Both the position numbers and the translations under genes were made by a program. From a virus: a stretch of 43,003 nucleotides of DNA. A model generated the notes under the pieces. It saw only the letters and a list, made by a program, of their open reading frames with translations. It searched no databases and was not told the DNA's origin. Location: positions 1-43,003 of IMG/VR virus record IMGVR_UViG_3300020020_000083. One strand, given 5' to 3'. This document shows, one piece after another, positions 1,014-43,003 of this stretch (within the stretch, counting starts at the first letter, position 1; every line of letters begins with the position of its first letter).

Positions 1014-1235
1014 TCAAGCAAGGAGGAGCGTGCGCCCGCCGCACCGCTCGCACCGCACCTCGGCGGGCAGGCTGTACGTCGCCTCGCGCCCGTTGTGCCT
1101 GACGAAGATAACGCTACCATCCCGCACGCCGAGAGTCTTGTCGCACTTCTCGCAGCGCACCGCCGAGGCGTGGGGGCCGGGATGGCGCGGCAGTCGCGCC
1201 GTTGAGGTGATGGCCTGGCGCTCGTAGTCAATCAT
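1014..1235 (-). CDS. Small Com-like zinc-ribbon protein
   Basis: A 73-aa protein starting MIDYERQ, with two CxxC pairs (RCEKCDK and RCERCGG) separated by about 30 residues, so it should bind one zinc ion. The pattern, with a hydrophobic LLL after the second pair, resembles phage Mu Com, an RNA-binding zinc protein that activates translation of mom. Many phage genomes carry such a protein near the capsid genes. The chosen ATG at 1235 overlaps the stop of the glycosyltransferase (ATGA). A longer reading from 1268 is open but lacks that coupling. Binding to nucleic acid is inferred. The link with the Mom-like gene at 15.8 kb is a hypothesis. Confidence 0.7.
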   Translation of the reverse strand: MIDYERQAITSTARLPRHPGPHASAVRCEKCDKTLGVRDGSVIFVRHNGREATYSLPAEVRCERCGGRTLLLA

Positions 1236-2290
1236 GCCGCTTGCCTCCTGCCCTGCTCCAGCAACCAAGCAAAGGCGTCAACCCAGCGATGGGCGCTTAC
1301 CTGTAAGTTGTGCTGCTCCACCACCACCCGCCTGAGCCGCCGCGCCAGCACGCCCGCGTACTGCCTGTCCTCCACCAGCCTCGACAATCCCTCTGCCCAC
1401 TCATCCGCCGTATTCGCGATGAGGCCGGTGTCGTTGTGCCGGATGACGCTGTGATAGAGCGCGCTGGTGGCGACGACGGCCGCGCCCGACGCGCCATACT
1501 CCAACGCCTTGATGACGCTCTTGCAGGCGTTGAACGGCGTATCCGCGACCGAGCAGCAACCGATGTCGATGTTCACCAACCCGGCCGGGTACTTCGCCAG
1601 TTCGATCCACGGCAGGAACCGCAGCCGGTCGGACGGCACCGCGTCATGTACCACCTGGGCGCAATGCCCCTGCACCACGAAACGCACGTTGGGGTGCCGC
1701 TCGGCCACCCGCCGCCAGCCTTCCGCCATCGCCACGAGGTCGGCGTCGAGGCGGTTCGCGCCCGCCCAGCCAATCGTCACGGGCGGGATGATGCGCTGGG
1801 CCTGCTTCTGAATCATCCGCCACCAATCCCAGTCCAGCAGATTCGGGCAGACGGCGACGGGTATCTCGCCCTTCGTCGCCAGCCCCACCACCGTCTTGAG
1901 CCTTGACGTGCTGACAATGATGCCGTCGCAGAGCATGACCGTGTGGATCGCCTCCTTGCCCTGCTTGAGCTTTACGGCGTCCATCATGTGGTCTTCGAGA
2001 TGGAGGAATAAATCATCGTCGCATTCAAACCAGACCGCGCAGCCCAGCCCGTGCAGCATGGCGATGAACTGGCGTGCGAGGTCGATCGCGAACGCGGGCC
2101 AGGTCGTGCGCGAGAGCACGATGGCGTCGTAGCGACCGAGCGCCACGAGTCCCGCGATGTCCTCGTAATCCTTCGAGCAGTGGTGGACGGGGTAGCCCTG
2201 GCGTTGGAGTTCGGCGGTTGGCTGCCACACGCGCCAGAGTGAACTGCCGTCGCTGCCGCCCGTCAGGAAGAGGACGCGGGGTGCGGTCAT
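1232..2290 (-). CDS. GT-B type glycosyltransferase (family 4-like)
   Basis: A 352-aa protein likely to transfer a sugar from an activated donor. The N-terminal half begins with a Rossmann strand (RVLFLTGGSDGSSLWR) and has WFECDDDLF. The C-terminal half starts near ITIGWAGANR and carries the donor-site region, with SVIKALEYGASGAAVVAT followed by DTGLIA, as in group 1 glycosyltransferases. The ATG at 2290 overlaps the preceding stop (ATGA) and has GGGTGG upstream; a GTG at 2299 is the alternative. Its place between tail genes and the protease-capsid pair suggests that it acts on a virion protein. The acceptor and sugar cannot be told from sequence. Confidence 0.8.
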   Translation of the reverse strand: MTAPRVLFLTGGSDGSSLWRVWQPTAELQRQGYPVHHCSKDYEDIAGLVALGRYDAIVLSRTTWPAFAIDLARQFIAMLHGLGCAVWFECDDDLFLHLEDHMMDAVKLKQGKEAIHTVMLCDGIIVSTSRLKTVVGLATKGEIPVAVCPNLLDWDWWRMIQKQAQRIIPPVTIGWAGANRLDADLVAMAEGWRRVAERHPNVRFVVQGHCAQVVHDAVPSDRLRFLPWIELAKYPAGLVNIDIGCCSVADTPFNACKSVIKALEYGASGAAVVATSALYHSVIRHNDTGLIANTADEWAEGLSRLVEDRQYAGVLARRLRRVVVEQHNLQVSAHRWVDAFAWLLEQGRRQAA

Positions 2291-2514
2291 TGTCGCCACC
2301 CTGTCGCAAAATCACTCCACCAGTGGGGCGTCTCTTCGAGGTTCCCTTGCCCGTTCACAACTGCCAAGTGCCAGCTATCGCGATGGGAGACAGAACGAAT
2401 ATGTTCTGCCGCCTCTTCTGTCGAATCAAACGAGCCGTAGTAGTCGCCCATGCCCCCGCCCGGATAATAGGTGTCGTATCCGAAGAGGTGGTAGCGCGTT
2501 CGCTCCTCGCTCAT
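2287..2514 (-). CDS. Small hypothetical protein
   Basis: A 75-aa protein starting MSEERTRYHL, rich in Tyr, Gly and Asp (YDTYYPGGGMGDYYGSF), then a short helix (STEEAAEHIR). I do not recognise a family. The ATG at 2514 overlaps the upstream stop by four bases, and its own stop overlaps the glycosyltransferase start, so it is translated as part of the late operon. A weak resemblance in layout to the 73-aa protein at 22235 (aromatic, ending in a short AxxYV helix) may be chance. Confidence 0.6.
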   Translation of the reverse strand: MSEERTRYHLFGYDTYYPGGGMGDYYGSFDSTEEAAEHIRSVSHRDSWHLAVVNGQGNLEETPHWWSDFATGWRQ

Positions 2515-2827: not shown

Positions 2828-2836
2828 TGCTATAAT
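2828..2836 (+). promoter_or_regulatory. Extended -10 promoter of HNH cassette 1
   Basis: TG-C-TATAAT, a perfect extended -10 with no good -35 box. On the minus strand the adjoining bases read as the GGGGAGG ribosome binding site of the gene starting at 2813. The same promoter type precedes all four leader-bearing HNH genes. Confidence 0.75.
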
Positions 2837-2842
2837 TAGGGC

Positions 2843-2912
2843 AACGGAAAGCCCCCGCGCTGTTCGCAGCAGCCGGGGGAATGGCGCCCCAAACCTGTAT
2901 AGGAGGTTCAGA
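2843..2912 (+). ncRNA. Conserved structured 5' leader of HNH gene 1
   Basis: Hairpin P1: CCCCCG (2852-2857) pairs with CGGGGG (2874-2879), C2858 is bulged, and GCTG (2859-2862) pairs with CAGC (2870-2873). Hairpin P2: AACCT (2892-2896) pairs with AGGTT (2904-2908) around the 7-nt loop GTATAGG, which holds the first half of the AGGAGG ribosome binding site. The same two hairpins occur in the other three leaders with compensating base changes. A cis-acting role in controlling HNH translation is inferred. Confidence 0.65.
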
Positions 2913-3416
2913 ATGCCCAACCGTTATACCGGACCTTTGCCCCTCGCGCAACGCTTCTGGTCGAAAGTGGATAAATCGGGCGACTGCTGGATCTGGACCG
3001 CTAGTTACGGCAGCGTTGGCTACGGGCAATTTGGCATTGCAGGCAAACTCCACGGCGCACATCGGGTAGCCTACGAGTTGGTGCATGGACCTATCCCCGA
3101 AGGGTTGCGTGTGCTTCACCGTTGCGACAATCGCGCCTGTGTTCGCCCCGATCATCTCTTCCTTGGCACCCAAGCCGATAACATGGCAGACATGCACAGC
3201 AAGGGGCGTGGGTATAGCTACTTTCGCCAATACCCTGAGCGCGTGCTGCGTGGCGAACAGCAGCACGCCGCGAAGTTGACCGATGATGTTGTTCGCAAGA
3301 TTCGTCGACTTCATGCCGATGGCCTCAACTACCCCGAACTTGCTGCCCGATTCGGCGTGTGCAAACAGTCCATTTGCAACATCGTGCGTCGTCACACATG
3401 GCGACACGTCGCCTAA
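2913..3416 (+). CDS. HNH homing-type endonuclease 1
   Basis: A 167-aa stand-alone nuclease. Residues 14-100 form an HNH_3-like domain: RFWSKVDKSGDCWIW, then GHAHR-type strands, then HRCDNRACVRPDHLFLG with His69, Cys71, Asp72, Asn73, Cys76 and His81. Residues 122-167 look like a helix-turn-helix DNA-binding tail (ELAARFGVCKQSICNIV) ending WRHVA. ATG at 2913 follows AGGAGG at 2901; the frame is open further upstream but the leader makes that start unlikely. It runs against the late genes, and its stop overlaps the stop of the tail gene at 3413. Such enzymes usually spread themselves and their flanks into related phages. Confidence 0.88.
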   Translation: MPNRYTGPLPLAQRFWSKVDKSGDCWIWTASYGSVGYGQFGIAGKLHGAHRVAYELVHGPIPEGLRVLHRCDNRACVRPDHLFLGTQADNMADMHSKGRGYSYFRQYPERVLRGEQQHAAKLTDDVVRKIRRLHADGLNYPELAARFGVCKQSICNIVRRHTWRHVA

Positions 3417-15803: not shown

Positions 15804-16379
15804 ATGGTGGTGGCAAGCCAGTTGCAGCTACCCACACTCGCGGAAGAAATCGTGGTCATCCATGCACGTCAAGCGCGGGCATTCATCGTCCAGCATCACT
15901 ACATGGCGCGCATGGAGAACTTCGCCCCCCTCTGCTACGGGCTTTACCGCGACGGCATCCTCGACGGCGTGTTCGTCTTCTCGCTGCCTTTGGGGGATGA
16001 GATGTTCCTGGGCTTCGACCGTCGCCTTGTTGTGGAACTGGCGCGCTGTGTGTGGCTTGACAAGGGCGACCGCAACACCGGCTCACGCACCATCGCCATA
16101 CTCCTCGCTCGCCTGCGACAAGACTGGTTCCGCCACCAAGGCATCAGCCCCGAGCTGGTGGTGTCCTACTGCGACACGTCCCGACACACCGGCACGCTCT
16201 ATCGCGCTTGCAACTTCATCGACGCCGGACTCACCGACGAACGCAAGAATCCCACCCGCGTCGGCAGCCTCGTTCGTCCGCGCCAGGCGTTCGCAGACAG
16301 GCAAACGGTGAAGCGTCGCTACGTGTATCCACTGACCAGAAGCGCACGCAAACACCTTATGCGCCGAGCCGCCGACTAG
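15804..16379 (+). CDS. Mom-like DNA modification protein
   Basis: A 191-aa GNAT-fold protein resembling phage Mu Mom, which turns some adenines into N6-carbamoylmethyladenine and so blocks many restriction enzymes. Matching features are AFIVQHHYM near residue 30, GVFVFSLP, a core RCVWLDKGDRNTGSRTIAILLARLR, then LVVSYCDTSRHTGTLYRACNF and the basic end KRRYVYPLTRSARKHLMRR. ATG at 15804 has GAGAGGAG upstream; a 10-bp GC palindrome precedes that. It lies between the annealing protein and an HNH gene. Modification chemistry is by analogy. Confidence 0.75.
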   Translation: MVVASQLQLPTLAEEIVVIHARQARAFIVQHHYMARMENFAPLCYGLYRDGILDGVFVFSLPLGDEMFLGFDRRLVVELARCVWLDKGDRNTGSRTIAILLARLRQDWFRHQGISPELVVSYCDTSRHTGTLYRACNFIDAGLTDERKNPTRVGSLVRPRQAFADRQTVKRRYVYPLTRSARKHLMRRAAD

Positions 16380-18617: not shown

Positions 18618-19232
18618 ATGCAGCCGTACTTTGAGCGAGACGGGATAGTGATTTACCACGGAGATTGCCGGGACGTGCTGCCGCAGTTGAGCGAGCCGGT
18701 GGATCTCGTGCTGACCGATCCGCCCTATGGCCTTGATTTCCGTGGCGCAGAGTGGGATAGCGAGATTCCCGACTGGTTGCCGCTAGCGCGGGCTACCGCA
18801 CCAATCGTCATCTTCACCACCGCCCCACTAACGATGTGGGATTACCCGCGCCCTGATTGGGTGAATTGCTGGGCGCGTCCTGCGTCGAATGCCCGCTCTA
18901 CCAGCGGTGGATTCTCACATTGGTCGCCGGTGCTGGTCTACGGCAAGCCGAAGTTTCCGACCGACTACATCAGCCTGCACGCCATCCAGAACGCAGCACC
19001 GGCGTGGAATACCCACCCTTCCCCAAAGCCTGAGCGACTGTACCGCTGGCTGGTGCAGCACGGATCGCCGGAGGGCGGGCTGGTAGTTGACCCCTTCATG
19101 GGCAGCGGCACCACCCTGCGTGCCGCCCTCGACCTCGGCCGCAAAGCCATCGGCATCGAACTGGAAGAACGCTACTGTGAGATTGCCGCGCGCCGCCTCT
19201 CACAGATGGTTCTCCCACTGGGGGCAGCATGA
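18618..19232 (+). CDS. DNA N6-adenine/N4-cytosine methyltransferase
   Basis: A 204-aa protein of the N6_N4_Mtase family. The catalytic DPPY is at residues 34-37, and the SAM-binding DPFMGSGTT lies near residues 158-166, so the motif order is of the beta class. Between them are IVIFTTAP and GGFSHWSPVLVYGKPK, typical strands. It is short, so it has a small target-recognition part. It starts one base after the loader stop and overlaps the next gene. A methylase without a nuclease fits protection from host restriction. Confidence 0.88.
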   Translation: MQPYFERDGIVIYHGDCRDVLPQLSEPVDLVLTDPPYGLDFRGAEWDSEIPDWLPLARATAPIVIFTTAPLTMWDYPRPDWVNCWARPASNARSTSGGFSHWSPVLVYGKPKFPTDYISLHAIQNAAPAWNTHPSPKPERLYRWLVQHGSPEGGLVVDPFMGSGTTLRAALDLGRKAIGIELEERYCEIAARRLSQMVLPLGAA

Positions 19233-32566: not shown

Positions 32567-32691
32567 CGACGACGCCTGGTCTTTGGCTGTGAGAAGGACG
32601 ACTAACTCTGCCGCGCTTGCTATGGCGTATAACCCACCTGAAACGTATCATGCACGACAATCGTATCTAAGTCCCAATGAGGAGGAGAGCC

Positions 32692-33105
32692 ATGTACCGA
32701 CTGCTGCTCGTTCCGTTCGTCCTGGTGGCGCTGGTGGCCTGTGGTGGCACCGCGCCGACCGCCACGCCCACCTTCGCCCGCTACACCGCCGATGATGTGA
32801 CCAAGGCGCTGATGCCGCTGGGGATAACCGACATCAAGGCGGGGACGCGCGACCCCAAGAGCGTGGCCCCGAACACCTACACCGCCGCGCAAGAGTTCAG
32901 CATCCCGAGCATCGCCCCGAAGGGCGGGCAGGTGCAGATATTCGCCACGGCCAGCGACCTGGCCGCGATGCAGACCTGGTATGCCCGATTCCCCGACCTG
33001 GCCCCGTATGTCTATGTGAAGGGCAATGCGCTCGTGCAACTGAACAACACCTTGCCGAAGGCCGAGGCCGAGAAGTTCCGCGCCGCCGTCGAGGGGATGC
33101 GTTAG
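32692..33105 (+). CDS. Lipoprotein, probable moron gene
   Basis: A 137-aa protein with a lipoprotein signal: MYRLLLVPFVLVALVACGG, lipobox LVAC with Cys17. A Thr/Pro-rich linker (TAPTATPTF) follows, then a compact alpha/beta domain ending AEKFRAAVEGMR. It is on the opposite strand to the tail genes and touches the chaperone stop by four bases. AGGAGGAG lies before ATG at 32692; a TATAAC at 32628 is a possible -10. Such lone lipoproteins can block superinfection or change the host surface. That role is inferred. Confidence 0.72.
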   Translation: MYRLLLVPFVLVALVACGGTAPTATPTFARYTADDVTKALMPLGITDIKAGTRDPKSVAPNTYTAAQEFSIPSIAPKGGQVQIFATASDLAAMQTWYARFPDLAPYVYVKGNALVQLNNTLPKAEAEKFRAAVEGMR

Positions 33106-33831: not shown

Positions 33832-34230
33832 CTAGAGGTTGTTACCCCACGACCCGTTCGCCGTGATGGTGCCCGAGATGGTCGCGGGACCGTCCACCGG
33901 CACCTCGATCGAGTAGTCCACCCAGCAGGGGCCATAGGCGTATTTCGCCGCCGCGTCCGTAGACACGTAGAGATACGCCTTCGCGCCGTCCGCCGAAAGG
34001 CTCGCCGTTTTTACGGTGCTGTCGGTGTCGTCCCAATAGCCGCTGAACTCGACCGATACGTCAGGGAGTCCCTGCACGTAGGTCTTGTTCGAGTCGCCGA
34101 AACTGGTCGTCTCTTCCTTGTCCGTGGAGTAGTCGAGACTCCAGTTGGAGAGGGATGCGACCGGGGTTGCCGTCCCGGCTGCCGTGGTTGCGAGGTAGAG
34201 CCTGCCCTTGCGTCCGTGGTACCTGGCCAA
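33832..34230 (-). CDS. Major tail tube protein
   Basis: A 132-aa beta-rich protein: GRKGRLYLATTAAGTATPVASLSNWSLDYSTDKEETTSFGDSNKTYVQGLPDVSVEFSGYWDD is typical of phage major tail tube subunits, as is the C-terminal ATISGTITANGSW. It lies right before the chaperones and tape measure. The start is TTG at 34230, with AAGGG upstream. A 50-base gap with a weak -10-like TGTATAGG (minus strand, near 34255-34262) may hold a promoter for this high-level gene. Confidence 0.85.
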   Translation of the reverse strand: MARYHGRKGRLYLATTAAGTATPVASLSNWSLDYSTDKEETTSFGDSNKTYVQGLPDVSVEFSGYWDDTDSTVKTASLSADGAKAYLYVSTDAAAKYAYGPCWVDYSIEVPVDGPATISGTITANGSWGNNL

Positions 34231-34272: not shown

Positions 34273-34296
34273 ACCGCTGCATCAGTCAGCAGCGGT
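34273..34296 (-). other. Hairpin at end of glycosyltransferase gene
   Basis: 8-bp stem (34273-34280 with 34289-34296) and an 8-nt loop overlapping the glycosyltransferase stop codon. It may end or slow transcription before the tail tube gene, or stabilise that transcript. Confidence 0.4.
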
Positions 34297-35358
34297 AGCC
34301 AATGCGTCGCGCGAGGCCACGCCATGCCCCGCGAGAGTCGCCGTGAGTTGGGCCGCACGAGCGGCGTAGGTGTGGGGTGCCGCCTTGCCGGGGAGTTGCG
34401 CGGCGAAGAATTGCCGATCGACCTCGCGTGGCAGATAGCGCCGTATGTATTGTTCGAGTTGCTGCGGGGTGCGATAGGTCGGCACCAATGAGCCGAACAC
34501 CTCGAATATCTCGTCGCGCTCATCGCTCATCGCGAACGCCCCGCACGCGGCCAGTTCCAGCGCGCGCGGGTTCAGCGACTCCGCGCCCTCGATGTGCTCC
34601 ACGCCGAGGCCGTAGCCCTTGCTGGTGCGGTAGGGGTTGAGGTTCACCTTGGCCGCCCGGTACATTGCCTGGGCGGTGCGGTTATCGACGATGCCGCCCT
34701 TGATGTAGCGCCGCAACTTGTGACGGCTTGGCAGCAGGCCGAACGCGCCGTACATCGCGAAGTCAATCCCGGTCCAGTCCACCTCGGAGAAGAGCGCGAT
34801 CCGCTCCTCGAACAGCGTGCCGATGAAGAGGACATCGTGCGCCGGTGTGCCCTCGGGAATCGGCCCGGTGCTCGACCGCTCGGGGTCGTAGGCGTGCGCC
34901 AGGTAGTGCGTGTTCGGGTTGACCCGCCCCAGCACCTCGACGCTGGTGCGCTCGTTGGTGAACACGATGTCTGCCCACGGTGCGACCCGCGCCTGCGCCT
35001 CATCGTCGTAGGGGGATTCGCTCAGGACGAGCGCCACCTTGACGCCCGCGCGCTTGAGCAGGATGAAGAAGTCGGGATGGAAGTACATGCCCGAGAAGAT
35101 GACCACCCAATCGGGCTGGTGGTAGAGCGCCTGCGGGATGACATCCATCGCCGCTTTCGTCAGCGCCTCCTCCCACGCGAGCGGGGTATTGCCTGAGCGC
35201 CGCGCCCGCCAGCGGTAGAACTTCACCGCGTCATCGAGGCGCGTGCAGAGGTCGTAGTGCTTCACGTCGTGCCCCTGCGCGATGAGCGCGCGGGCGAAGC
35301 CGTGGAACACGTCGCCGGTGGCATAGGACGCGCCCGGATGGACGCACAAAAGCTTCAT
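34282..35358 (-). CDS. CgeB-like glycosyltransferase
   Basis: A 358-aa GT-B fold protein. The N terminus (MKLLCVHPGASYATGDVF, DWVVIFSGMYFHPDFFILLKRAGVKVALVLSESPYDDEAQARVAPWADIVFTNERTSVEVLG) and the middle (DVLFIGTLFEERIALF, AKVNLNPYR, ESLNPRALELAACGAF) match the Glyco_trans_1_2 / CgeB type. It probably moves a sugar to a protein or glycan. ATG at 35358 has GAGGGA upstream, overlapping the promoter of the tRNA-like gene. It lies between the aminotransferase and the tail tube gene. Confidence 0.8.
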   Translation of the reverse strand: MKLLCVHPGASYATGDVFHGFARALIAQGHDVKHYDLCTRLDDAVKFYRWRARRSGNTPLAWEEALTKAAMDVIPQALYHQPDWVVIFSGMYFHPDFFILLKRAGVKVALVLSESPYDDEAQARVAPWADIVFTNERTSVEVLGRVNPNTHYLAHAYDPERSSTGPIPEGTPAHDVLFIGTLFEERIALFSEVDWTGIDFAMYGAFGLLPSRHKLRRYIKGGIVDNRTAQAMYRAAKVNLNPYRTSKGYGLGVEHIEGAESLNPRALELAACGAFAMSDERDEIFEVFGSLVPTYRTPQQLEQYIRRYLPREVDRQFFAAQLPGKAAPHTYAARAAQLTATLAGHGVASRDALATAAD

Positions 35359-35366
35359 GCTACAAT
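35358..35366 (+). promoter_or_regulatory. Extended -10 promoter of tRNA-like gene
   Basis: TG-C-TACAAT ends 14 bases before the tRNA-like sequence. It matches the HNH cassette promoters (TG-N-TATAAT), starts on the start codon of the leftward glycosyltransferase, and has no clear -35. Confidence 0.5.
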
Positions 35367-35379
35367 TCCCTCGATGGCT

Positions 35380-35452
35380 GGGGGCTGTAGAGTAACCGGC
35401 AGTTCGCCCGCTTTCGGGGTGGGAAGTGTGGGTTCGACTCCCACGAGTCCCC
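35380..35452 (+). tRNA. tRNA-Arg-like gene, anticodon TCG
   Basis: A cloverleaf fits well. The acceptor GGGGCTG (35381-35387) faces GAGTCCC (35445-35451) with a G-G mismatch at 7-66; G35380 can pair with C35452. U8-A9, the D stem GAGT/GTTC and loop AACCGGCA carry A14, GG18-19 and A21. The anticodon stem is CCCGC/GTGGG with loop TTTCGGG (anticodon TCG, 35414-35416). The T stem is GTGGG/CCCAC with loop TTCGACT. CCA is not encoded. It would read CGA, and by wobble other CGN. It runs against the late genes. The mismatch and C at position 73 make charging uncertain. Confidence 0.68.
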
Positions 35453-35464
35453 TCGCCATCACCC

Positions 35465-36583
35465 TCACGCCGCCCTCCGCGCCCGCATGAAGGCCCATTC
35501 GTGAATGATTCGCGCGATGTATTCGCGCTGCTCGTCGCTCACCCACCAACCATTAGGGATGCTCACTTGCCGCGCGTCGAAGGCGTCCACACCGGGCAGC
35601 GGGTCGCTGGTACTCACCTTCTTGAAGGCGTCGTGGGCATCATTGCGCCGGTGTACCTGGCTGGTGGCGATGCCGCGCTCCCCGAGGTACGCGGAGAAGC
35701 TGTCGCGGTCGTCCACGCACAGCGTCATCAGCCAGTAGGCGCACGCCGGGTCGTAGGGCGGCACGTCGATACCGGGGAGGTCGGCCAACCAGCGGCAGTA
35801 GTACTCCGCGTTGGCGCGACCACGGTCCACCGCCGCCGCCAGGCCGGGGAGGTTGGCGAGGCCGATGGCCGCCGCGATGTCGTTCAATTGGTACTTGTAG
35901 CCAATCTCCTGGATGTTCTGCGCGCAGCGGAAATCCGCGCTGCTCTCGCGGTCGAGGCCATACCAGCGGAGCAACTTCGCGCGCTGGTATTGGCTCGGTG
36001 GGGTGATGAGCGCGCCACCGTCGCCCATCGTCAGATGCTTGATGGCCTGGAAGGAGTAGCAGACGTAATCGCCTTCGTTGCCGCCGTAGGGGCCGTGTGC
36101 CGCATCCTCGATGATGGCAGGAATGCGCCCGCCACCTTGGGCAACCTCAACGAGCATTCGCATCTTGCCGTATTCGCAATTCCGCCCGCCCCAGTTGACC
36201 GCGATGATCGCCTTCGTCCGCTCTGTGACCTTCTCGGCCACGCTCAGCGGGTCGATGTTCCCGGTCAGCGGGTCAACGTCAGCCCAGACGATGCGCGCAC
36301 CACGCAGCGCGGGCGGGCTATTGGTCGCCGTGCAGGTGATGGGCGTGGTGATGACCTCATCCCCTGGCCCCACGCCGATGAGATGCAGCGCGAGGTCGAT
36401 GGCGCTGGTGCAGGAGTTGAGCAATAGCGGCGGTTCGGGTGCGCCGATGAGTTCGCCAAACTGGCGCTCGAACTCCGCGCACTTCGGACCTTGGCCGATG
36501 TACCCTGATGACAGCACCTCGTTGACGAGGTAGCCCGCGCCTTCGTCCATGCGAACTTGAAATAGCTTTATCTCGTGACTCAT
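35465..36583 (-). CDS. DegT/DnrJ/EryC1/StrS-type sugar aminotransferase
   Basis: A 372-aa PLP enzyme of the type that places an amino group on a keto sugar nucleotide. The N terminus has SSGYIGQGPKCAEFERQFGELIG. Asp160 in the IIEDAAHGPYG motif and Lys182 in SFQAIKHLTMGDGG bind PLP. LNDIAAAIGLANLP is the usual dimer segment. ATG at 36583 uses GGGGAGGGG, which belongs to the HNH cassette 2 boundary. It sits next to glycosyltransferases and an acetyltransferase, so it should supply an amino sugar. The exact sugar is unknown. Confidence 0.9.
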   Translation of the reverse strand: MSHEIKLFQVRMDEGAGYLVNEVLSSGYIGQGPKCAEFERQFGELIGAPEPPLLLNSCTSAIDLALHLIGVGPGDEVITTPITCTATNSPPALRGARIVWADVDPLTGNIDPLSVAEKVTERTKAIIAVNWGGRNCEYGKMRMLVEVAQGGGRIPAIIEDAAHGPYGGNEGDYVCYSFQAIKHLTMGDGGALITPPSQYQRAKLLRWYGLDRESSADFRCAQNIQEIGYKYQLNDIAAAIGLANLPGLAAAVDRGRANAEYYCRWLADLPGIDVPPYDPACAYWLMTLCVDDRDSFSAYLGERGIATSQVHRRNDAHDAFKKVSTSDPLPGVDAFDARQVSIPNGWWVSDEQREYIARIIHEWAFMRARRAA

Positions 36584-36597
36584 TTAGCCCCTCCCCG

Positions 36598-36606
36598 TGG
36601 TATAAT
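36598..36606 (+). promoter_or_regulatory. Extended -10 promoter of HNH cassette 2
   Basis: TG-G-TATAAT. On the minus strand the bases just beside it read GGGGAGGGGCTAAATG, the ribosome binding site and start of the aminotransferase gene. Confidence 0.75.
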
Positions 36607-36612
36607 TTGGGG

Positions 36613-36682
36613 AGAGGAAAGCCGGAGCGCTGCTACTAACAGCCCCCGGCGTGACGCCCCAAAGCCTGTCAAGGAGGCTCAG
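36613..36682 (+). ncRNA. Conserved structured 5' leader of HNH gene 2
   Basis: P1: GCCGG (36621-36625) with CCGGC (36646-36650), and GCTG (36629-36632) with CAGC (36640-36643), loop CTACTAA. P2: AGCCT (36663-36667) with AGGCT (36675-36679), 7-nt loop GTCAAGG. Compared with leader 1, P2 changes AACCT/AGGTT to AGCCT/AGGCT, and P1 changes its outer stem, with both arms altered together. Confidence 0.65.
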
Positions 36683-37210
36683 ATGACGCACCCCAACTAT
36701 ACCACCCCAACTACTCCTGAGAATGTCGAAGATCGCTTCTGGTCGAAGGTTGACCGCAGCGGTGATTGTTGGCTGTATGTGCCGGGACCAAGCACGCGCT
36801 ATGGCATTTTTTGCCCCGGCCATCAAGGCAAGGTGAGCGCGCACCGCTTCTCCTACGAACTGGCCTATGGCCCCATTCCCCTTGGAATGCTGGTCTGCCA
36901 CCGCTGTGATGTGAAGCGTTGCGTTCGTCCTGATCACCTGTTTCTCGGCACTTCGGCGGACAATATCCATGACATGCACGCGAAGGGGCGTGGTCAGCGC
37001 GGAGATAAGCATTCCGCGCGCCTGCGTCCTGAGACTCGCCCACGGGGAAGCGCTCACGGTCGCGCCCGATTGACTGAGCGCGACGTGACGGAAATCCGCG
37101 CGGCTCTCGCCTTGGGCACCCGTGGCACCGTGTTGGCACGTCGCTTCTGTGTCACGGTGTCCACAATTAGCCGCATCAACAAGGGCCATATTTGGCGTCA
37201 CGTCGCATAG
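36683..37210 (+). CDS. HNH homing-type endonuclease 2
   Basis: A 175-aa protein starting MTHPNYTTPTTPENVEDRFW. The HNH_3-like core has RFWSKVDRSGDCWLY, SAHRFSYELAYGPIP and CHRCDVKRCVRPDHLFLG. The central Asn of the usual CDNxxC is replaced by Val here (CDVKRC), which may affect activity. The C-terminal part ELAARF-like (TVLARRFCVTVSTISRINKGHIWRHVA) is an HTH. AAGGAGG precedes the ATG. It runs against the late genes between the GNAT gene and the aminotransferase. Confidence 0.87.
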   Translation: MTHPNYTTPTTPENVEDRFWSKVDRSGDCWLYVPGPSTRYGIFCPGHQGKVSAHRFSYELAYGPIPLGMLVCHRCDVKRCVRPDHLFLGTSADNIHDMHAKGRGQRGDKHSARLRPETRPRGSAHGRARLTERDVTEIRAALALGTRGTVLARRFCVTVSTISRINKGHIWRHVA

Positions 37211-37219
37211 GGGGGCAAC

Positions 37220-37414
37220 ATGGCGAACAAAAAATTGCTGCGTGCGGAGAAGAACCGGGATGCCTGGATCGAACTGTACGCCGCTGCGGTTCGGTCGTAC
37301 ATTGACCACCTTCAGCGCGGCAACTACTATCAGGCCAATGCGGTGGCCGCGATTATTGAGGACACACGCAAGCAAGTAGAGCAGGCCTGCATCGAATTCG
37401 AGGAGGCGCACTAG
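37220..37414 (+). CDS. Small protein downstream of HNH 2
   Basis: A 64-aa helical protein (MANKKLLRAEKNRDAWIELYAAAVRSYIDHLQRG). ATG at 37220 has GGGGGG upstream, nine bases after the HNH stop, so it is probably on the same transcript as cargo of that cassette. It ends five bases before the convergent GNAT gene's stop. The other three cassettes lack it. Function is unknown. Confidence 0.5.
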   Translation: MANKKLLRAEKNRDAWIELYAAAVRSYIDHLQRGNYYQANAVAAIIEDTRKQVEQACIEFEEAH

Positions 37415-37419
37415 AGGAA

Positions 37420-38154
37420 TCATCGCTGCTCTCCCATCCACCACCCGCACGGCAACTCAGCCTCGGGCGCGCTGTAGTCGAACCGGCTCACCCCATGCTC
37501 AACCCGCACCTTGGGCCGCGTGCGGTAGTGCCGGCAGCCATCCGCCTCGCCCGTCATCTCCCACTCACGGTCGTTGTGGAGCGCGCAGGCGGCCGGATTG
37601 CTCACGAGCGCCCGCGCGTAGACCTCATGCCCCACAGAGCCGATGAGATGGCTCAGGATGCGCCCGCCGTACTTCCGCCCCTCATGACCGGGCAGCACGG
37701 CGCAGGACGAGACCCAGGTGCCGTCCTCGCGCTGCAGGAGGGCGCTGTAGCCCACCAGTTTGCCGCCGAAGGTGTAGAGGAAGGCGTTCACCCGCTGCCG
37801 GTTCTCCTGCCACCACGCCCGCTGTCGCTCGTCGTCAATCTCGCTGTTGTCGGCAGAGAACCCGAACCGCTGGATGTGGCGAATCCGCCCCATCGTCAGC
37901 GCGTCGTCCTCGGTGCAGACGGGCGTGGCGACGAGCGTGGGGCGCGTGTCGGCGGGCGTGGCGAGCGCGGGCAGCGGCGGCACCGTCTCGATGACCTCGG
38001 CCTCGGGAGAGACGCAGGGGATAGCGTGACGCATGGCGTCAGCAAAGGACTTTGCAGCAAGCACGAGAGCGCCATGCTCATCGGTATACCGCTCGGGGTT
38101 GTTGAGGATTTCCCCGAAAGTCAGCTCGCCGGGCTTGCGTGGAATCACTGACAT
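37420..38154 (-). CDS. GNAT-family acetyltransferase
   Basis: A 244-aa protein. The first about 90 residues are a low-similarity region. The last 150 are a GNAT fold: NAFLYTFGGKLVGYSALLQREDGTWVSSCAVLPGHEGRKYGGRILSHLIGSVG, where the GHEGRKYGG turn binds acetyl-CoA, and PAACALHNDREWEMTGEADG matches the usual N-A-H-x-(Y/H)-W end. It could acylate an amino sugar made by the aminotransferase. ATG at 38154 has GAGGTG eight bases upstream; a GTG at 38163 is open. Confidence 0.8.
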   Translation of the reverse strand: MSVIPRKPGELTFGEILNNPERYTDEHGALVLAAKSFADAMRHAIPCVSPEAEVIETVPPLPALATPADTRPTLVATPVCTEDDALTMGRIRHIQRFGFSADNSEIDDERQRAWWQENRQRVNAFLYTFGGKLVGYSALLQREDGTWVSSCAVLPGHEGRKYGGRILSHLIGSVGHEVYARALVSNPAACALHNDREWEMTGEADGCRHYRTRPKVRVEHGVSRFDYSAPEAELPCGWWMGEQR

Positions 38155-38164
38155 CTCTAACACC

Positions 38165-38788
38165 TCAACTCGGGCGCGCGATGGCGATAAGTCGATCCAC
38201 CCACACCGGCCCCACCCCCACCGCAGCCCACAGCCGCAGCGTGGACTCGATGAAGTCCCAGTCCCCCTCGTACCGCTCCGACCATTGCCCGAGCAGGCTG
38301 GGGAGGTTCGGCGTCACGATGCAATGCCCGCCGATGAGTCCTTGCCCCAGCAGCCCCGGCGCAAGCCAGTACGTCGGCCCGTGGTAGGAGCGGAACCGGA
38401 ACAGCATCGGCGTGGGGCGCGGCAACTGCGCTGCCGTATCGCGAATCGCTCCGAACGCACCCGCCGCGAACACGTCGTCGTCGTCGTTGAAGGTGATGTA
38501 CTCGCCCCGCGCCTTGCTCATCGCGTGGTTTATCTGCGCGTGGCCGTAGTCGTGATGACCGGGTGTGTGGGGCACGAAGCGCACGCACGCGCCCTCGGGT
38601 GCCTCCTGCCCCAGCCTGCCGCACAGTTCGCGCACGTCGTCCAGCGGCGAATCGGTGGTGTCGGCCGCGACCAGGATTTCGTCGCCCTCGCAGAGCTGGT
38701 GAAGCGCGCTCAGGATGGAGCGGCGCAGGAGCGACAGGCGGTCGATGTCTGCGGCACAGGTCGGGATGATGGCGCTTATGCTAGGCAC
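38165..38788 (-). CDS. Family 2 glycosyltransferase (GT-A)
   Basis: A 207-aa protein with the GT-A N terminus PSISAIIPTCAADIDRLSLLRRSILSALHQ, DEILVAADTTDSP, and the metal-binding FNDDDDVFAAGAF. The rest is short, so it is a minimal enzyme. GTG at 38788 uses the GGGGACGG ribosome binding site in the HNH cassette 3 boundary; the longer frame upstream covers that cassette's leader. It adds to the sugar block. Confidence 0.8.
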   Translation of the reverse strand: MPSISAIIPTCAADIDRLSLLRRSILSALHQLCEGDEILVAADTTDSPLDDVRELCGRLGQEAPEGACVRFVPHTPGHHDYGHAQINHAMSKARGEYITFNDDDDVFAAGAFGAIRDTAAQLPRPTPMLFRFRSYHGPTYWLAPGLLGQGLIGGHCIVTPNLPSLLGQWSERYEGDWDFIESTLRLWAAVGVGPVWVDRLIAIARPS

Positions 38789-38803
38789 GTTAGACCGTCC
38801 CCA

Positions 38804-38812
38804 TGGTATAAT
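38804..38812 (+). promoter_or_regulatory. Extended -10 promoter of HNH cassette 3
   Basis: TG-G-TATAAT. The minus strand beside it reads GGGGACGGTCTAACGTG, the ribosome binding site and GTG start of the family 2 glycosyltransferase. Confidence 0.75.
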
Positions 38813-38818
38813 TAGGGC

Positions 38819-38882
38819 ACAGAGAATCCCCGCGCTGCCTGGTACGCAGCCGGGGAGTGGCACCAGAACGCTGGAGGTTCCA
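38819..38882 (+). ncRNA. Conserved structured 5' leader of HNH gene 3
   Basis: P1: TCCCCG (38827-38832) with CGGGGA (38851-38856), bulged C38833, GCTG (38834-38837) with CAGC (38847-38850), 9-nt loop. P2: GAAC (38866-38869) with GTTC (38877-38880), 7-nt loop GCTGGAG carrying the ribosome binding site. The T-A swap at the base of P1 and the changed P2 stem keep pairing. Confidence 0.65.
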
Positions 38883-39455
38883 ATGCCCCGCAATTATCGC
38901 AAACATCCGGCAAAATGCGAACGCTGCGACGCGGACTTCTTGCGCGTCTCGGGACAGAAGACCCGCTACTGTTCGCACGATTGCGCCAACAAGGCGCGGA
39001 GCATAGGCTTTGCCGAGCGATTCTGGTCGAAGGTAGACAAAACCGGCGATTGCTGGCTGTGGACTGGTGGATGCACCAGCTATGGGTATGGTGCTTTCTC
39101 CGTCAGCACAGGAATCGCCAAACTGGCGCACCGTGTCGCTTATGCCTTGTGCATCGCCCCGCCCCCCGATGACCTTATGGTTTGCCACACTTGCGACAAC
39201 CCACCGTGCGTGAATCCGGCGCATCTCTTCCTGGGCACGCGCGGCGATAACAATCGTGACCGCGCCGCAAAGGGACGCACGCAACGAGGCGAGGCCCATA
39301 CCTCGGCCAAATTCACCGATGAGACGGTAAAGGCGATTCGCGCCCGCTATGCTCAGGGCGGAATCACTCAGGCGGCTATGGCGCGAGAGTACGGTGTCTC
39401 GCTCCAAACCATTAGGTGTATTGTCACGAATCGATCGTGGCGTCATCTCGTTTAG
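38883..39455 (+). CDS. HNH homing-type endonuclease 3 with extra zinc finger
   Basis: A 190-aa protein. It has an extra N-terminal zinc finger (CERCDADFLRVSGQKTRYCSHDC), then the HNH_3-like core RFWSKVDKTGDCWLW, AHRVAYALC, VCHTCDNPPCVNPAHLFLG, and an HTH tail (AAMAREYGVSLQTIRCIVTNRSWRHLV). The zinc finger is the main difference from the other copies, and may change DNA binding. AGGTTCCA precedes the ATG. It lies between the tail terminator and the family 2 glycosyltransferase genes. Confidence 0.88.
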   Translation: MPRNYRKHPAKCERCDADFLRVSGQKTRYCSHDCANKARSIGFAERFWSKVDKTGDCWLWTGGCTSYGYGAFSVSTGIAKLAHRVAYALCIAPPPDDLMVCHTCDNPPCVNPAHLFLGTRGDNNRDRAAKGRTQRGEAHTSAKFTDETVKAIRARYAQGGITQAAMAREYGVSLQTIRCIVTNRSWRHLV

Positions 39456-39461
39456 CCCCGG

Positions 39462-39854
39462 CTAAGAAAATATCTCCACCTCGAACCCTGCCGTCAGCAC
39501 GCTCTTCCCGCCCATCTCGCGCGTGCTGTAACTCGTCATTGCAATCACCTGCACCGAGTGCAGCCCGTCGCCCGCGATCGGCTCTTCCAGCGCGGCGACG
39601 ATGGTGCTCGGGGCGAGGAAGTAGTCGAGCGCCGCCTGCGCCTGCCCCAAGTCCCCCAGCAGCACCCCCACCGTCACGCCGATGGTGTAGGTCAACTCGC
39701 CGGGAAAGGTCGCGTGGTAGTTGATGCGAAGCGGCAGCGTCCACGCAGCGGGGAGGTGCGGCACACCCGGCTCGATGGCGTAGGCGGTCAGCCCCCGCAC
39801 CGTCGCCAGCCGCTCCTTGAGCGCGGTTCGCACCTGCGTCAATGTCGCCGCCAT
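39462..39854 (-). CDS. Tail terminator/completion-type protein
   Basis: A 130-aa protein: TLTQVRTALKERLATVRGLTAYAIEPGVPHLPAAWTLPLRINYHATF, then GELTYTIGVTVGVLLGDLGQAQAALDYFL and a C-terminal VIAMTSYSTREMGGKSVLTAGFEVEIFS. This is the DUF3168/tail-terminator-like layout seen just before the tail tube gene. Here the sugar block stands between. ATG at 39854 uses the GGGGAGGGCGGG site in the HNH 4 boundary. Confidence 0.72.
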   Translation of the reverse strand: MAATLTQVRTALKERLATVRGLTAYAIEPGVPHLPAAWTLPLRINYHATFPGELTYTIGVTVGVLLGDLGQAQAALDYFLAPSTIVAALEEPIAGDGLHSVQVIAMTSYSTREMGGKSVLTAGFEVEIFS

Positions 39855-39870
39855 TAGCCCGCCCTCCCCG

Positions 39871-39879
39871 TGGTATAAT
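39871..39879 (+). promoter_or_regulatory. Extended -10 promoter of HNH cassette 4
   Basis: TG-G-TATAAT. The minus strand beside it reads GGGGAGGGCGGGCTAATG, the ribosome binding site and start of the tail terminator gene. Confidence 0.75.
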
Positions 39880-39885
39880 TGGGGT

Positions 39886-40054
39886 GGGAGCGATGGCGTG
39901 GTAAACCATGCTGACGAAACGGAACGGTCGCGTCGAGCCCTCTTCCGTCCTCGGGGATTGAGTCCCCGTTGAGTGGGTCCGCTCGCTCCCCAACATAAAG
40001 CCCCCGCGCTGCGCTAACAGCCGGGGGAGTGGCACAACGACTCAGGAGGTCGTC
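39886..40054 (+). ncRNA. Extended structured leader of HNH gene 4
   Basis: The 3' half is as in the other leaders: P1 CCCCCG (40001-40006) with CGGGGG (40022-40027), bulged C40007, GCTG with CAGC; P2 ACGAC (40037-40041) with GTCGT (40049-40053), 7-nt loop TCAGGAG. Upstream is an extra about 105-nt part: stem GGGAGCGA (39886-39893) with TCGCTCCC (39983-39990) around three hairpins, 39896-39911 (TAAA loop), 39919-39948 (ACGGAA/TTCCGT) and 39952-39968 (CGGGGA/TCCCCG). It looks like a four-way junction RNA. Confidence 0.6.
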
Positions 40055-40564
40055 ATGCACCCTCAGTATACCCCAGAACAGATTGCGCGCTTTTGGTCGA
40101 AGGTGGATAAGTCCGGCGACTGCTGGATTTGGATCGCCGGCCGGATTCAGACTGGCTATGGTTCGTTCTATGCGAACGGGCGCAGCCACCGTGCCAACCG
40201 CGTGGCCTACGAGATTGCCACCGGCCCCATCCCCGAGGGGATGTTCGTCTGCCACCGATGCGACAATCCATCCTGTGTTCGACCTGATCATCTCTGGCTT
40301 GGTTCCGCTGCCGAAAACTCCGCTGACATGGTGGCGAAGGGGCGCGCTGCAAGTGGCGATCAAAGCCCGGTGCGCCTGCATCCAGAGAGTCGCCCGCGTG
40401 GCGAGAAGCATCATGCCGCGAAGGTGACAGCGGAAACCGTAAAGGCAATCCGCGCCCGCTACGTGCAGGGTGGCGTCACACAGATGGCCTTGGCTGCGCT
40501 GTTCAGCCTTGACCAGACCACCATTTCGGACATTATTCGCCGCAGGAGTTGGCGTCACCTTTAG
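40055..40564 (+). CDS. HNH homing-type endonuclease 4
   Basis: A 169-aa protein starting MHPQYTPEQIARFW. The core has RFWSKVDKSGDCWIW, RANRVAYEIATGPIPEGM and VCHRCDNPSCVRPDHLWLG with the full HNH_3 residue set. The HTH tail (MALAALFSLDQTTISDIIRRRSWRHL) ends the protein. The C-terminal DETVKAIRARYxQGGxTQ block is nearly the same as in HNH 3, so these two are close relatives. Its stop overlaps the gp10-like gene's stop. AGGAGG precedes the ATG. Confidence 0.88.
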   Translation: MHPQYTPEQIARFWSKVDKSGDCWIWIAGRIQTGYGSFYANGRSHRANRVAYEIATGPIPEGMFVCHRCDNPSCVRPDHLWLGSAAENSADMVAKGRAASGDQSPVRLHPESRPRGEKHHAAKVTAETVKAIRARYVQGGVTQMALAALFSLDQTTISDIIRRRSWRHL

Positions 40565-41732: not shown

Positions 41733-43003
41733 TTAGGTCAGCCCGGTCACGGAGCAGAAGCCATACGGACGGAACACCGCCATCGCGGCGCGCAACTCAG
41801 CGAGCAGCGCGATCATGTTGCGGACGAACATTTGGTCGATGTAGCCCATCCTGACGAACGCCTCTTCACGGTCGAAGAGGGTATGCGTCTGCGGGGTGAA
41901 CGCCCCCACCAGGCCGGTGCCGTCCGTGATGCCCAGCGACTTCACGACCGGGAGGCCGAAGATGGTCTGCGGTCCCACCTGACTCGGTGGCCCCATCAGG
42001 TAGCTGCCGAGGGTGGCGGTCGCCGCGTTCTCGCGGAGGAGGCGCACCGTCTGCCACTCGGTCGGGTGGAGCACGATGTCGGTCGGACTGACGAGGCCGG
42101 AAATCTCGATCTTCACCATCATCTTCAGGAGGGTGTCCATCGAGTTCTCGCTGGCCGCCGTCGCCTGCGTCAGAATCCCCGAGTTGAGGATGCCGAGGAG
42201 GTTCGGGCTGGTGCCGTTGCCGGTGAGCACCTGGCTCTCCAACGCGAGGTCGAGGCCGGTCAGCAGGCGACCGTTGATGATGTCCTGCATCTGCGGCGCG
42301 TCGGACAACGCCCTCGTGGTTATGGGGATCCAGTGGGCGATCGTCTCGACCGCCTTGGTGACGCGCTCGTAGTTGATGTCGGTTTCCGGCTTGGTGCCGC
42401 TGGTGCCGGTCGTCGCGGTCGCCTCGGCCACGGTCGCCGCGTTGTTGGTGAAGGTGATTTCCTTCACCCAGTCGATCGTGTCGCTGCTGGTGCGGGTGCG
42501 GGAGATGAGGTCGAGCACGTTGCGCGGGCGCTGCAACAGGTCCACGTAGCCGGGGCGGAAGTCGTTGATGACGAACGCGCCGCCACCGCTGACCGAGTTG
42601 CCCACGACCAGCGCCTTGAGTTGCAGCAGGGAGTAGTCAAGCTTCGCGGCGAGTTCGGGCATCCGCGCGTGCGGGTTGTTGAGCGCGCCCGACTCGACCA
42701 TCGCCTTGTACTCGGCCAGGCCGGTGAACGACTCGCCCGGCATCAGGCGCTTGCGCTCGCCGCCCGCGCTGCGCTCTTCCGCGTCAACGTGGCGCATCGG
42801 GGTCGCCGGCTGCGACGCGGCGCTCTTCTCGCGGGCGATGCGGGCGCGCATGGTGTCGAGTTGGCCCAGTTCCTCGCGCCGCTTCTCCACGGCATCGAGG
42901 TCGGCGAACACGCCCTTAGCCCCTTCGAGGTCGCCCTTGCTGATGAAATCCTCAGCCTTGGCACAGAGGTCGATCGCTGTCTTATCCAGCGCGACGACGG
43001 TTG
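41733..43003 (-). CDS. Major capsid protein, main part (HK97 fold)
   Basis: The main part of the capsid gene; it continues at 23-174 on the other end. The joined protein is 431 aa. The coiled-coil end of the delta domain is EKRREELGQLDTMRARIAREKSAAS. The mature part has the HK97/P-domain pattern: GGAFVINDFRPGYVDLLQRPRNVLDLISRTRTSSDTIDWVKEI, YERVTKAVETIAHWIPITTRALSDAPQMQDIINGRL, DIVLHPTEWQTVRLLRE, PQTIFGLPVVKSLGI and the last FVRMGYIDQMFVRNMIALLAELRAAMAVFRP. Cleavage should fall between the two parts; the exact site is not visible. Confidence 0.95.
   Translation of the reverse strand, partial: TVVALDKTAIDLCAKAEDFISKGDLEGAKGVFADLDAVEKRREELGQLDTMRARIAREKSAASQPATPMRHVDAEERSAGGERKRLMPGESFTGLAEYKAMVESGALNNPHARMPELAAKLDYSLLQLKALVVGNSVSGGGAFVINDFRPGYVDLLQRPRNVLDLISRTRTSSDTIDWVKEITFTNNAATVAEATATTGTSGTKPETDINYERVTKAVETIAHWIPITTRALSDAPQMQDIINGRLLTGLDLALESQVLTGNGTSPNLLGILNSGILTQATAASENSMDTLLKMMVKIEISGLVSPTDIVLHPTEWQTVRLLRENAATATLGSYLMGPPSQVGPQTIFGLPVVKSLGITDGTGLVGAFTPQTHTLFDREEAFVRMGYIDQMFVRNMIALLAELRAAMAVFRPYGFCSVTGLT
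42878..43003. repeat. Terminal direct repeat, right copy
   Basis: Same 126 bp as 24-149 with one mismatch. It overlaps the capsid frame and shows that the two ends of the window join. Confidence 0.9.

Follow-up and report, generated by a model that had tools for sequence, protein, structure and literature searches.

The virus contig IMGVR_UViG_3300020020_000083 of IMG/VR, a stretch of 43,003 bases analyzed here at its full length and called the window throughout, carries a compact set of sugar-modifying genes within its minus-strand late structural operon. Between the genes for the tail terminator (39462..39854, minus strand; phrog_17840, 4e-11) and the tail tube (33832..34230, minus strand; PF06199, 1.7e-5; phrog_1407, 2e-15) lie, in the direction of transcription, a GT2 glycosyltransferase of the GT-A type (38165..38788; PF00535, 1e-9), a GNAT N-acyltransferase (37420..38163; PF00583, 2.4e-8), a DegT/DnrJ/EryC1/StrS sugar aminotransferase, hereafter DegT (35465..36583; PF01041, 5e-65), and, adjoining the tube gene, a GT-B glycosyltransferase of GT4-like fold (34282..35358; PF13524, 1e-14). 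Each is encoded on the minus strand and exceeds its Pfam cut-off. A first-pass annotation of this DNA had described them as one minus-strand run; the identity of the enzymes and their placement between terminator and tube hold, but the run is not uninterrupted, since an HNH endonuclease gene (HNH1) with a 64-residue open reading frame (ORF), a second HNH gene (HNH2) and a transfer RNA (tRNA) gene lie on the plus strand between these and the terminator gene or among them, with a third HNH gene (HNH3) just upstream.

The enzymes of the set

The DegT protein matches PF01041 over its full length (residues 19-359; 220 bits against a cut-off of 19.8), and its pyridoxal phosphate (PLP) lysine, K182 in the motif SFQAIKHLT, is invariant together with D160 in 12 phage sequences. 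Its nearest solved structures in the PDB are 4XAU and 4ZWV, which we take to be AtmS13, and CalS13 (4ZAS), followed by ArnB; its closest solved relatives are, in other words, sugar C4 aminotransferases of the CalS13 and ArnB types. Phage DegT proteins from both of the genomic positions described below form a single group in a tree, parted by a 100/100 branch from 37 of the 38 bacterial rows. The acyltransferase has its GNAT domain at residues 94-196, preceded by an N-terminal part that is not conserved, and is 79% identical to its counterpart in contig L012 and 70% to that in L142; none of the NCBIfam models matched it.

The first-pass annotation had assigned the two transferases to the GT-A and GT-B types, and structure prediction bears this out with confidence. 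The AlphaFold model of the GT2 protein has a GT-A fold (predicted local distance difference test, pLDDT, 94) whose nearest folds are WrtF and the dTDP-binding SpsA, and the elements GH, DDDD, G.HC, Y..D, W and R are invariant in 20 sequences; it is a minimal GT-A enzyme, with DDDD as the acidic metal-binding motif. The tube-adjoining protein, for which phmmer returned no match in the PDB, is predicted to have a GT-B fold (pLDDT 90.6), with BshA, PimA, MshA and SdgB as nearest folds. A P-R-x-x-E-L-A-A-C-G block is invariant among its relatives (16-row alignment A3), as are E268 and E283 of the C-terminal E...E region of the donor site. Membrane spans were found in no protein of the module. As a whole, the enzymology of the set is well supported by homology.

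Sugar transferases in a phage might also serve its DNA, as in T4, which glucosylates its own. The window does encode a Mom-family DNA modification protein (15804-16379, plus strand; PF25680, 2.5e-20) and a DNA methylase-like gene (18618-19232), which would suit a role of the enzymes in modifying phage DNA or another small substrate. Yet the transferases belong to the late structural operon and are distant from Mom; the parts of related contigs that were examined showed no relative of Mom; and among the structural matches listed the folds are those of nucleotide-sugar and polysaccharide enzymes, not of phage DNA glucosyltransferases. We regard this explanation as very improbable.

A module with two positions and an exchangeable middle

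With the tail tube as the only query, 10 contigs were recovered, some of them near-duplicates; 9 of these have a same-family GT-B gene immediately upstream, as a rule at a distance of 13-60 bp. The GT2 alignment as query found 31 viral loci. Wherever a viral contig carries both genes (24 contigs), GT2 precedes DegT on the same strand, the two forming the opening and closing bookends of the module. The module occupies two principal positions. Slot A, as far as each contig reaches, has the order terminator, module, GT-B and tail tube (the window, L143, L142, L146, L148, L149, L153, L169 and L170), and slot B has the order major capsid protein (MCP), module and head-tail connector (L151, L152, L155, L157, L160, L161, L162, L164 and L167). 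L150 shows a third context, with a GT-B-like gene and a Mu-type portal downstream of the module. Two slot-A records (G000 and G001) contain the GT-B of the tube, and four slot-B records, 50-78 kb in length, lack it. The first-pass annotation had called the placement of such genes among core tail genes unusual, which is true of cultured phages; within this lineage it is conserved, and the gene order in relatives, which that annotation had named as a check, shows that two lineages have the module linked to genes for the tail tube or the capsid.

Between the bookends the content varies. The middle may hold a GNAT, a GNAT with another GT2, or a FabG-like short-chain dehydrogenase/reductase (SDR) with a GNAT; a further version holds a gene labeled MTase here (no Pfam match), one more copy each of DegT and GNAT, an FkbM methyltransferase and two additional transferase-like genes. 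L153 and L169 have contents of the slot-B type in slot A, and the trees of DegT and of GT2 alike place them among the slot-B members. For the window itself the two trees place the bookends differently: its GT2 groups with L141, L142 and L143 (100/100), and its DegT with L143, L148, L149 and L146 (100/98), without L142. Pairwise identities change in the same manner, at 73% for GT2, 70% for GNAT, 50% for DegT and 45% for GT-B when the window is compared with L142, and at 43%, 39%, 73% and 58%, respectively, when compared with L148. This switch falls at the GNAT/DegT junction, the site of HNH1 in the window, which is suggestive, not proof, of endonuclease-driven exchange.

Across 50,697 GenBank phage records there was no match for GT2, GNAT or the tube GT-B (by tblastn for GT2 and the tube GT-B), and the best DegT match reached 42%. 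A single-sequence GT-B pattern search of viral contigs confirmed nothing, the GT-Bs having surfaced through the tube search. No description of such a cassette was found in the open-access literature.

Antisense insertions at native gene junctions

All of the interrupting genes lie antisense to the operon at gene junctions. HNH1 (36683..37210, plus strand; PF13392, 5e-12) and the 64-residue ORF downstream of it (37220..37414, plus strand; from the ORF list), which has no relative among the slot-A contigs, occupy the GNAT/DegT junction; HNH2 (38883..39455, plus strand; PF13392, 5e-7) sits at the junction of tail terminator and GT2; HNH3 (40055..40564, plus strand; PF13392, 9e-14) lies upstream of the terminator; and tRNA-Arg (TCG) (35380..35454, plus strand; ARAGORN; Rfam RF00005, 39.3 bits) occupies the DegT/GT-B junction. 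In relatives these junctions are stop/start overlaps of 1-8 nt. L142, which has no inserts at these points, shows overlaps of 1-4 nt: GTGA between terminator and GT2, ATGA between GNAT and DegT, GTGA between DegT and GT-B, and TGATG, a 1-nt overlap, between gp10 and terminator. The 4-nt overlap of DegT and GT-B recurs in L146 and L148, that of GNAT and DegT in several relatives, and terminator and GT2 overlap by 4-8 nt in L141, L142 and L143. L142 bears its own antisense HNH gene at GT2/GNAT, the single junction that is tight in the window. Because the same junctions overlap tightly in relatives without an insert there, the plus-strand genes are insertions, and the sugar genes form the native, translationally coupled operon. 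In L012, the closest relative, a different antisense ORF of 140 residues (L012:7531-7953, minus strand) lies at the GNAT/DegT junction, where the window has HNH1.

Each HNH gene arrives with its own expression signals. HNH1 is preceded by an extended -10 element (TGGTATAAT) and a two-hairpin leader (36601..36682), HNH2 by an extended -10 and a two-hairpin leader (38807..38882), and HNH3 by an extended -10 and a long leader (39874..40054), all on the plus strand. A fourth cassette (2831..3416, plus strand) has its extended -10 at 2831, a leader (2831-2912) and HNH4 from an ATG at 2913; HNH4 has, by inspection, the FWSKVDKSGDCW...HRCDN core in common with HNH1-3. All four TATAAT boxes of the window belong to these cassettes. 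The first hairpin is GC-rich, with swapped or compensatory stems (CCCCG/CGGGG and GCCGG/CCGGC, and CCGAGG/CCUCGG in L148), and the second is predicted to hold the Shine-Dalgarno sequence in its loop or 3' arm. Ten leaders from the window and other phages have a predicted mean best stem of 5.1 bp against 3.2 in shuffles, and their stem sequences differ. The exact hairpin motif occurs in four other viral contigs, before HNH genes of more than one type, and the leader found no Rfam family at the gathering score, its sole match being at chance level. The conserved leader also precedes antisense or HNH-type genes in L148, L149 and L171-L174.

The strand opposite the HNH1 promoter reads GGGGAGGGGCTAAATG, a Shine-Dalgarno sequence for the interrupted operon gene, and close variants of it occur in the other three cassettes of the window and in L148, L149 and L171. 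In the window, G-rich sequences of this kind (GGGGAGG...CTAA-start) are placed for the next minus-strand gene at 2813-2831, 36583-36601, 38788-38807 and 39854-39874. Each insert thus seems to make good the loss of translation that it causes, by restoring a ribosome site to the gene it interrupts.

These elements raise the alternative that the sugar genes are passengers that spread along with HNH homing endonucleases, without a settled function in the virion. HNH genes do occupy junctions of the module in the window and in L142, L148, L149, L153 and L008, and the disagreement of the GT2 and DegT trees would fit such traffic; most module-bearing contigs nonetheless show no HNH inside the module, the native junctions are overlapping in relatives without an insert there, and the catalytic residues are conserved. 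We consider the passenger explanation quite unlikely. A narrower version, in which the sugar genes came in with the HNH cassettes, was rejected, as relatives without an insert at a junction keep the same operon with overlapping genes.

The surrounding late operon

The minus-strand late genes run from terminase through portal, a MuF-like gene, a second GT-B (GT-B2), prohead protease, MCP and connector to a gp10-like gene, tail terminator, GT2, GNAT, DegT, GT-B, tail tube and tape measure. GT-B2 (1232..2299, minus strand; PF13692, 1.8e-8) lies on the capsid side of this same operon; both phage lineages have it upstream of the MCP. It has matches in four records of the GenBank phage collection, at 22-24%. 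It had been overlooked in the first-pass annotation, as had the HNH and tRNA interruptions and the recurrence of the set. The MCP gene (41733..43003, minus strand; HK97-type MCP relatives) starts across the window end, in the minus strand of bases 1-170, and both contig ends carry overlapping copies of its 5' part (1-170 and 42850-43003; the minus strand reads ...ETNVVALDKTAIDLC... at the left end and ...TVVALDKTAIDLC... at the right). Because the two ends repeat this part, the genome is probably circularly permuted, near complete and opened inside the MCP gene. A host search with the MCP profile against 400 genomes from the phylum to which an Anaerolineae metagenome-assembled genome belongs gave four distant HK97-type matches only (30-35%).

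Antisense between the chaperone-like and tape-measure genes lies a small lipoprotein gene (32677-33105, plus strand) with relatives at 60% in L148 and at 76% in L172, where it adjoins an HNH leader. It is a possible superinfection-exclusion moron.

Source of the sugar

In the cellular contig L098, genes resembling RmlA and RmlB precede, on the same strand, a GT2 domain that belongs to the family of the phage enzyme, DegT and GNAT. Because this contig pairs RmlA/RmlB-like genes with genes of the module, dTDP-4-keto-6-deoxyglucose (dTDP, deoxythymidine diphosphate) is the likely entry compound. The first-pass annotation had suggested that the set makes or finishes an N-acylated amino sugar, a view strengthened both by this neighborhood and by the CalS13- and ArnB-type relatives of DegT. 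The L098 region (L098:464-6940) is binned in the archaeon LFW-28 and includes a tyrosine recombinase beside phage-type versions of a GT2 fusion, DegT and GNAT; it may itself be a mobile element.

Two long-form slot-B phages (G006 and G007) have in common a six-gene block below terminase (L051:16532-19999, minus strand, with L052:470-1369, minus strand; L049:4968-9780, plus strand) that resembles transaldolase, GmhA, HddC, HddA, an SDR and an epimerase, all below equivalog cut-offs. The block reads as a putative route to a GDP- or other nucleoside diphosphate (NDP)-heptose, and sugar biosynthesis therefore appears to be a repeated habit of this phage group.

The virion as probable target

Given the gene families with their intact catalytic signatures, the conserved order, the two slots, the exchange of middle genes and the tight translational overlaps, we favor with fair confidence the reading that the set is a portable virion-glycosylation cassette of the late structural operon, one that would finish an N-acylated, probably 4-amino, sugar and place it onto the tail tube and/or the capsid. 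For its substrate, the order of its transferases, its acceptor and the location of the glycan on the virion we infer the following scheme. The host would supply an NDP-4-keto sugar, most likely dTDP-4-keto-6-deoxyglucose or a 4-keto-pentose; DegT would aminate it and GNAT would acylate the amine; GT2 and the tube GT-B would then assemble a short glycan chain on the tube protein, and GT-B2 would act on the capsid side. GT2 and DegT would remain as fixed bookends while the genes between them are swapped among phages, in a cassette that can take a place next to either the tail-tube or the capsid gene. That the virion is the target, as read from gene position, seems somewhat probable, because the set stays joined to the structural operon in both slots, because the tube-bound GT-B is absent from the slot-B records of 50-78 kb, and because GT-B2 lies near the MCP in both lineages and the module proteins have no membrane spans.

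Several observations weigh against this reading. DegT falls far below every NCBIfam equivalog cut-off (156 against 423 bits for PseC, 144 against 631 for ArnB and 97 against 435 for WecE), and an assignment of the exact sugar from these models was rejected on that ground. GNAT has no solved relative by phmmer against the PDB. The dehydratase and nucleotidyltransferase families PF16363 and PF00483 have no match in the window or L012, and the precursor must therefore come from the host. The tail tube, the candidate acceptor (132 residues), has 22.7% Ser+Thr, but high tube Ser+Thr is not diagnostic because the L011 tube, without an adjacent GT-B, reaches 19.5%; this content was rejected as an uninformative sign of glycosylation. 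The late-operon position also suits enzymes that act late on the host envelope.

This last point leads to the alternative that the target, late in infection, is a glycan on the host surface (a capsule, a wall polysaccharide or a teichoic acid), whose remodeling by the cassette would block superinfection or aid release, and that the cassette is merely co-transcribed with the structural genes. Serotype conversion by phage transferases is established, and the nearest GT2 folds are polysaccharide transferases (WrtF, SpsA, and chondroitin and heparosan synthases). The set nevertheless includes no membrane-spanning or flippase-like protein, keeps its link with tail-tube or capsid genes across diverged lineages and two slots, and has its tube GT-B tied to the tube gene. 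The first-pass annotation had allowed either a tail protein or a host glycan as acceptor; gene order and the lack of membrane spans favor the virion, and host-glycan remodeling is in our judgment unlikely, if deserving of attention.

Phage virion glycosylation is known from a few mycobacteriophages, in which the sugar is apparently derived from the host. The phages considered here seem to carry finishing enzymes for a special sugar and, in the long forms, a nucleotide-sugar pathway, joined to capsid or tail genes. Should the virion-glycosylation reading be true, phage surface glycans would be an evolving trait readable from metagenomes, and the position of the cassette would predict which particle protein is decorated. 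We tentatively extend it to a phage "serotype locus," possible rather than probable, in which sugar genes are exchanged between GT2 and DegT bookends and the glycan is re-targeted between tail tube and capsid by movement between slots; if so, related phages could carry different, partly self-made virion glycans. The antisense HNH endonucleases, landing on gene junctions with a replacement Shine-Dalgarno, may drive that exchange.

Comparison with known systems

In the WecE-WecD and PseC-PseH pairs a DegT enzyme followed by a GNAT yields an N-acetylated amino sugar. The window set likewise pairs DegT with GNAT, but its GNAT matches neither an NCBIfam model nor a solved structure. Its DegT resembles CalS13/AtmS13 and ArnB/WecE/PseC in its full-length PF01041 match and in its PLP lysine within SFQAxKHLT, and differs from them in that the phage DegTs form their own well-supported tree group and miss all equivalog cut-offs.

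The inserts recall the hairpin-controlled homing endonucleases of the T4 type, I-TevI, SegB and MobE (PMC2988022), MobE being likewise an HNH enzyme, in that a hairpin, predicted here, holds the Shine-Dalgarno sequence. They differ in that each copy has its own extended -10 promoter and a first, GC-rich hairpin, and in that they are antisense to the operon and carry on the promoter strand a Shine-Dalgarno for the interrupted gene.

The closest parallel for the whole is virion glycosylation in the mycobacteriophages Che8, Corndog and Myrna (PMC12363180, PMC11256854, citing Freeman et al., 2023), where capsid and tail tube are glycosylated by the phages' own transferases (PMC12363180). The likeness lies in tailed phages with phage-encoded glycosyltransferases linked to capsid or tail-tube genes, and in the acceptors, which we propose to be the same. 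In contrast, the phages studied here also encode a nucleotide-sugar aminotransferase and an N-acyltransferase, with a putative heptose-nucleotide pathway in the long forms; the set, with its exchangeable content, lies inside the structural operon; and GT2 and the tube GT-B show no homology to known phage transferases by tblastn against the phage collection. What is proposed here is thus a variant of known phage virion glycosylation in which sugar-finishing genes are carried, in exchangeable form, inside the structural operon.

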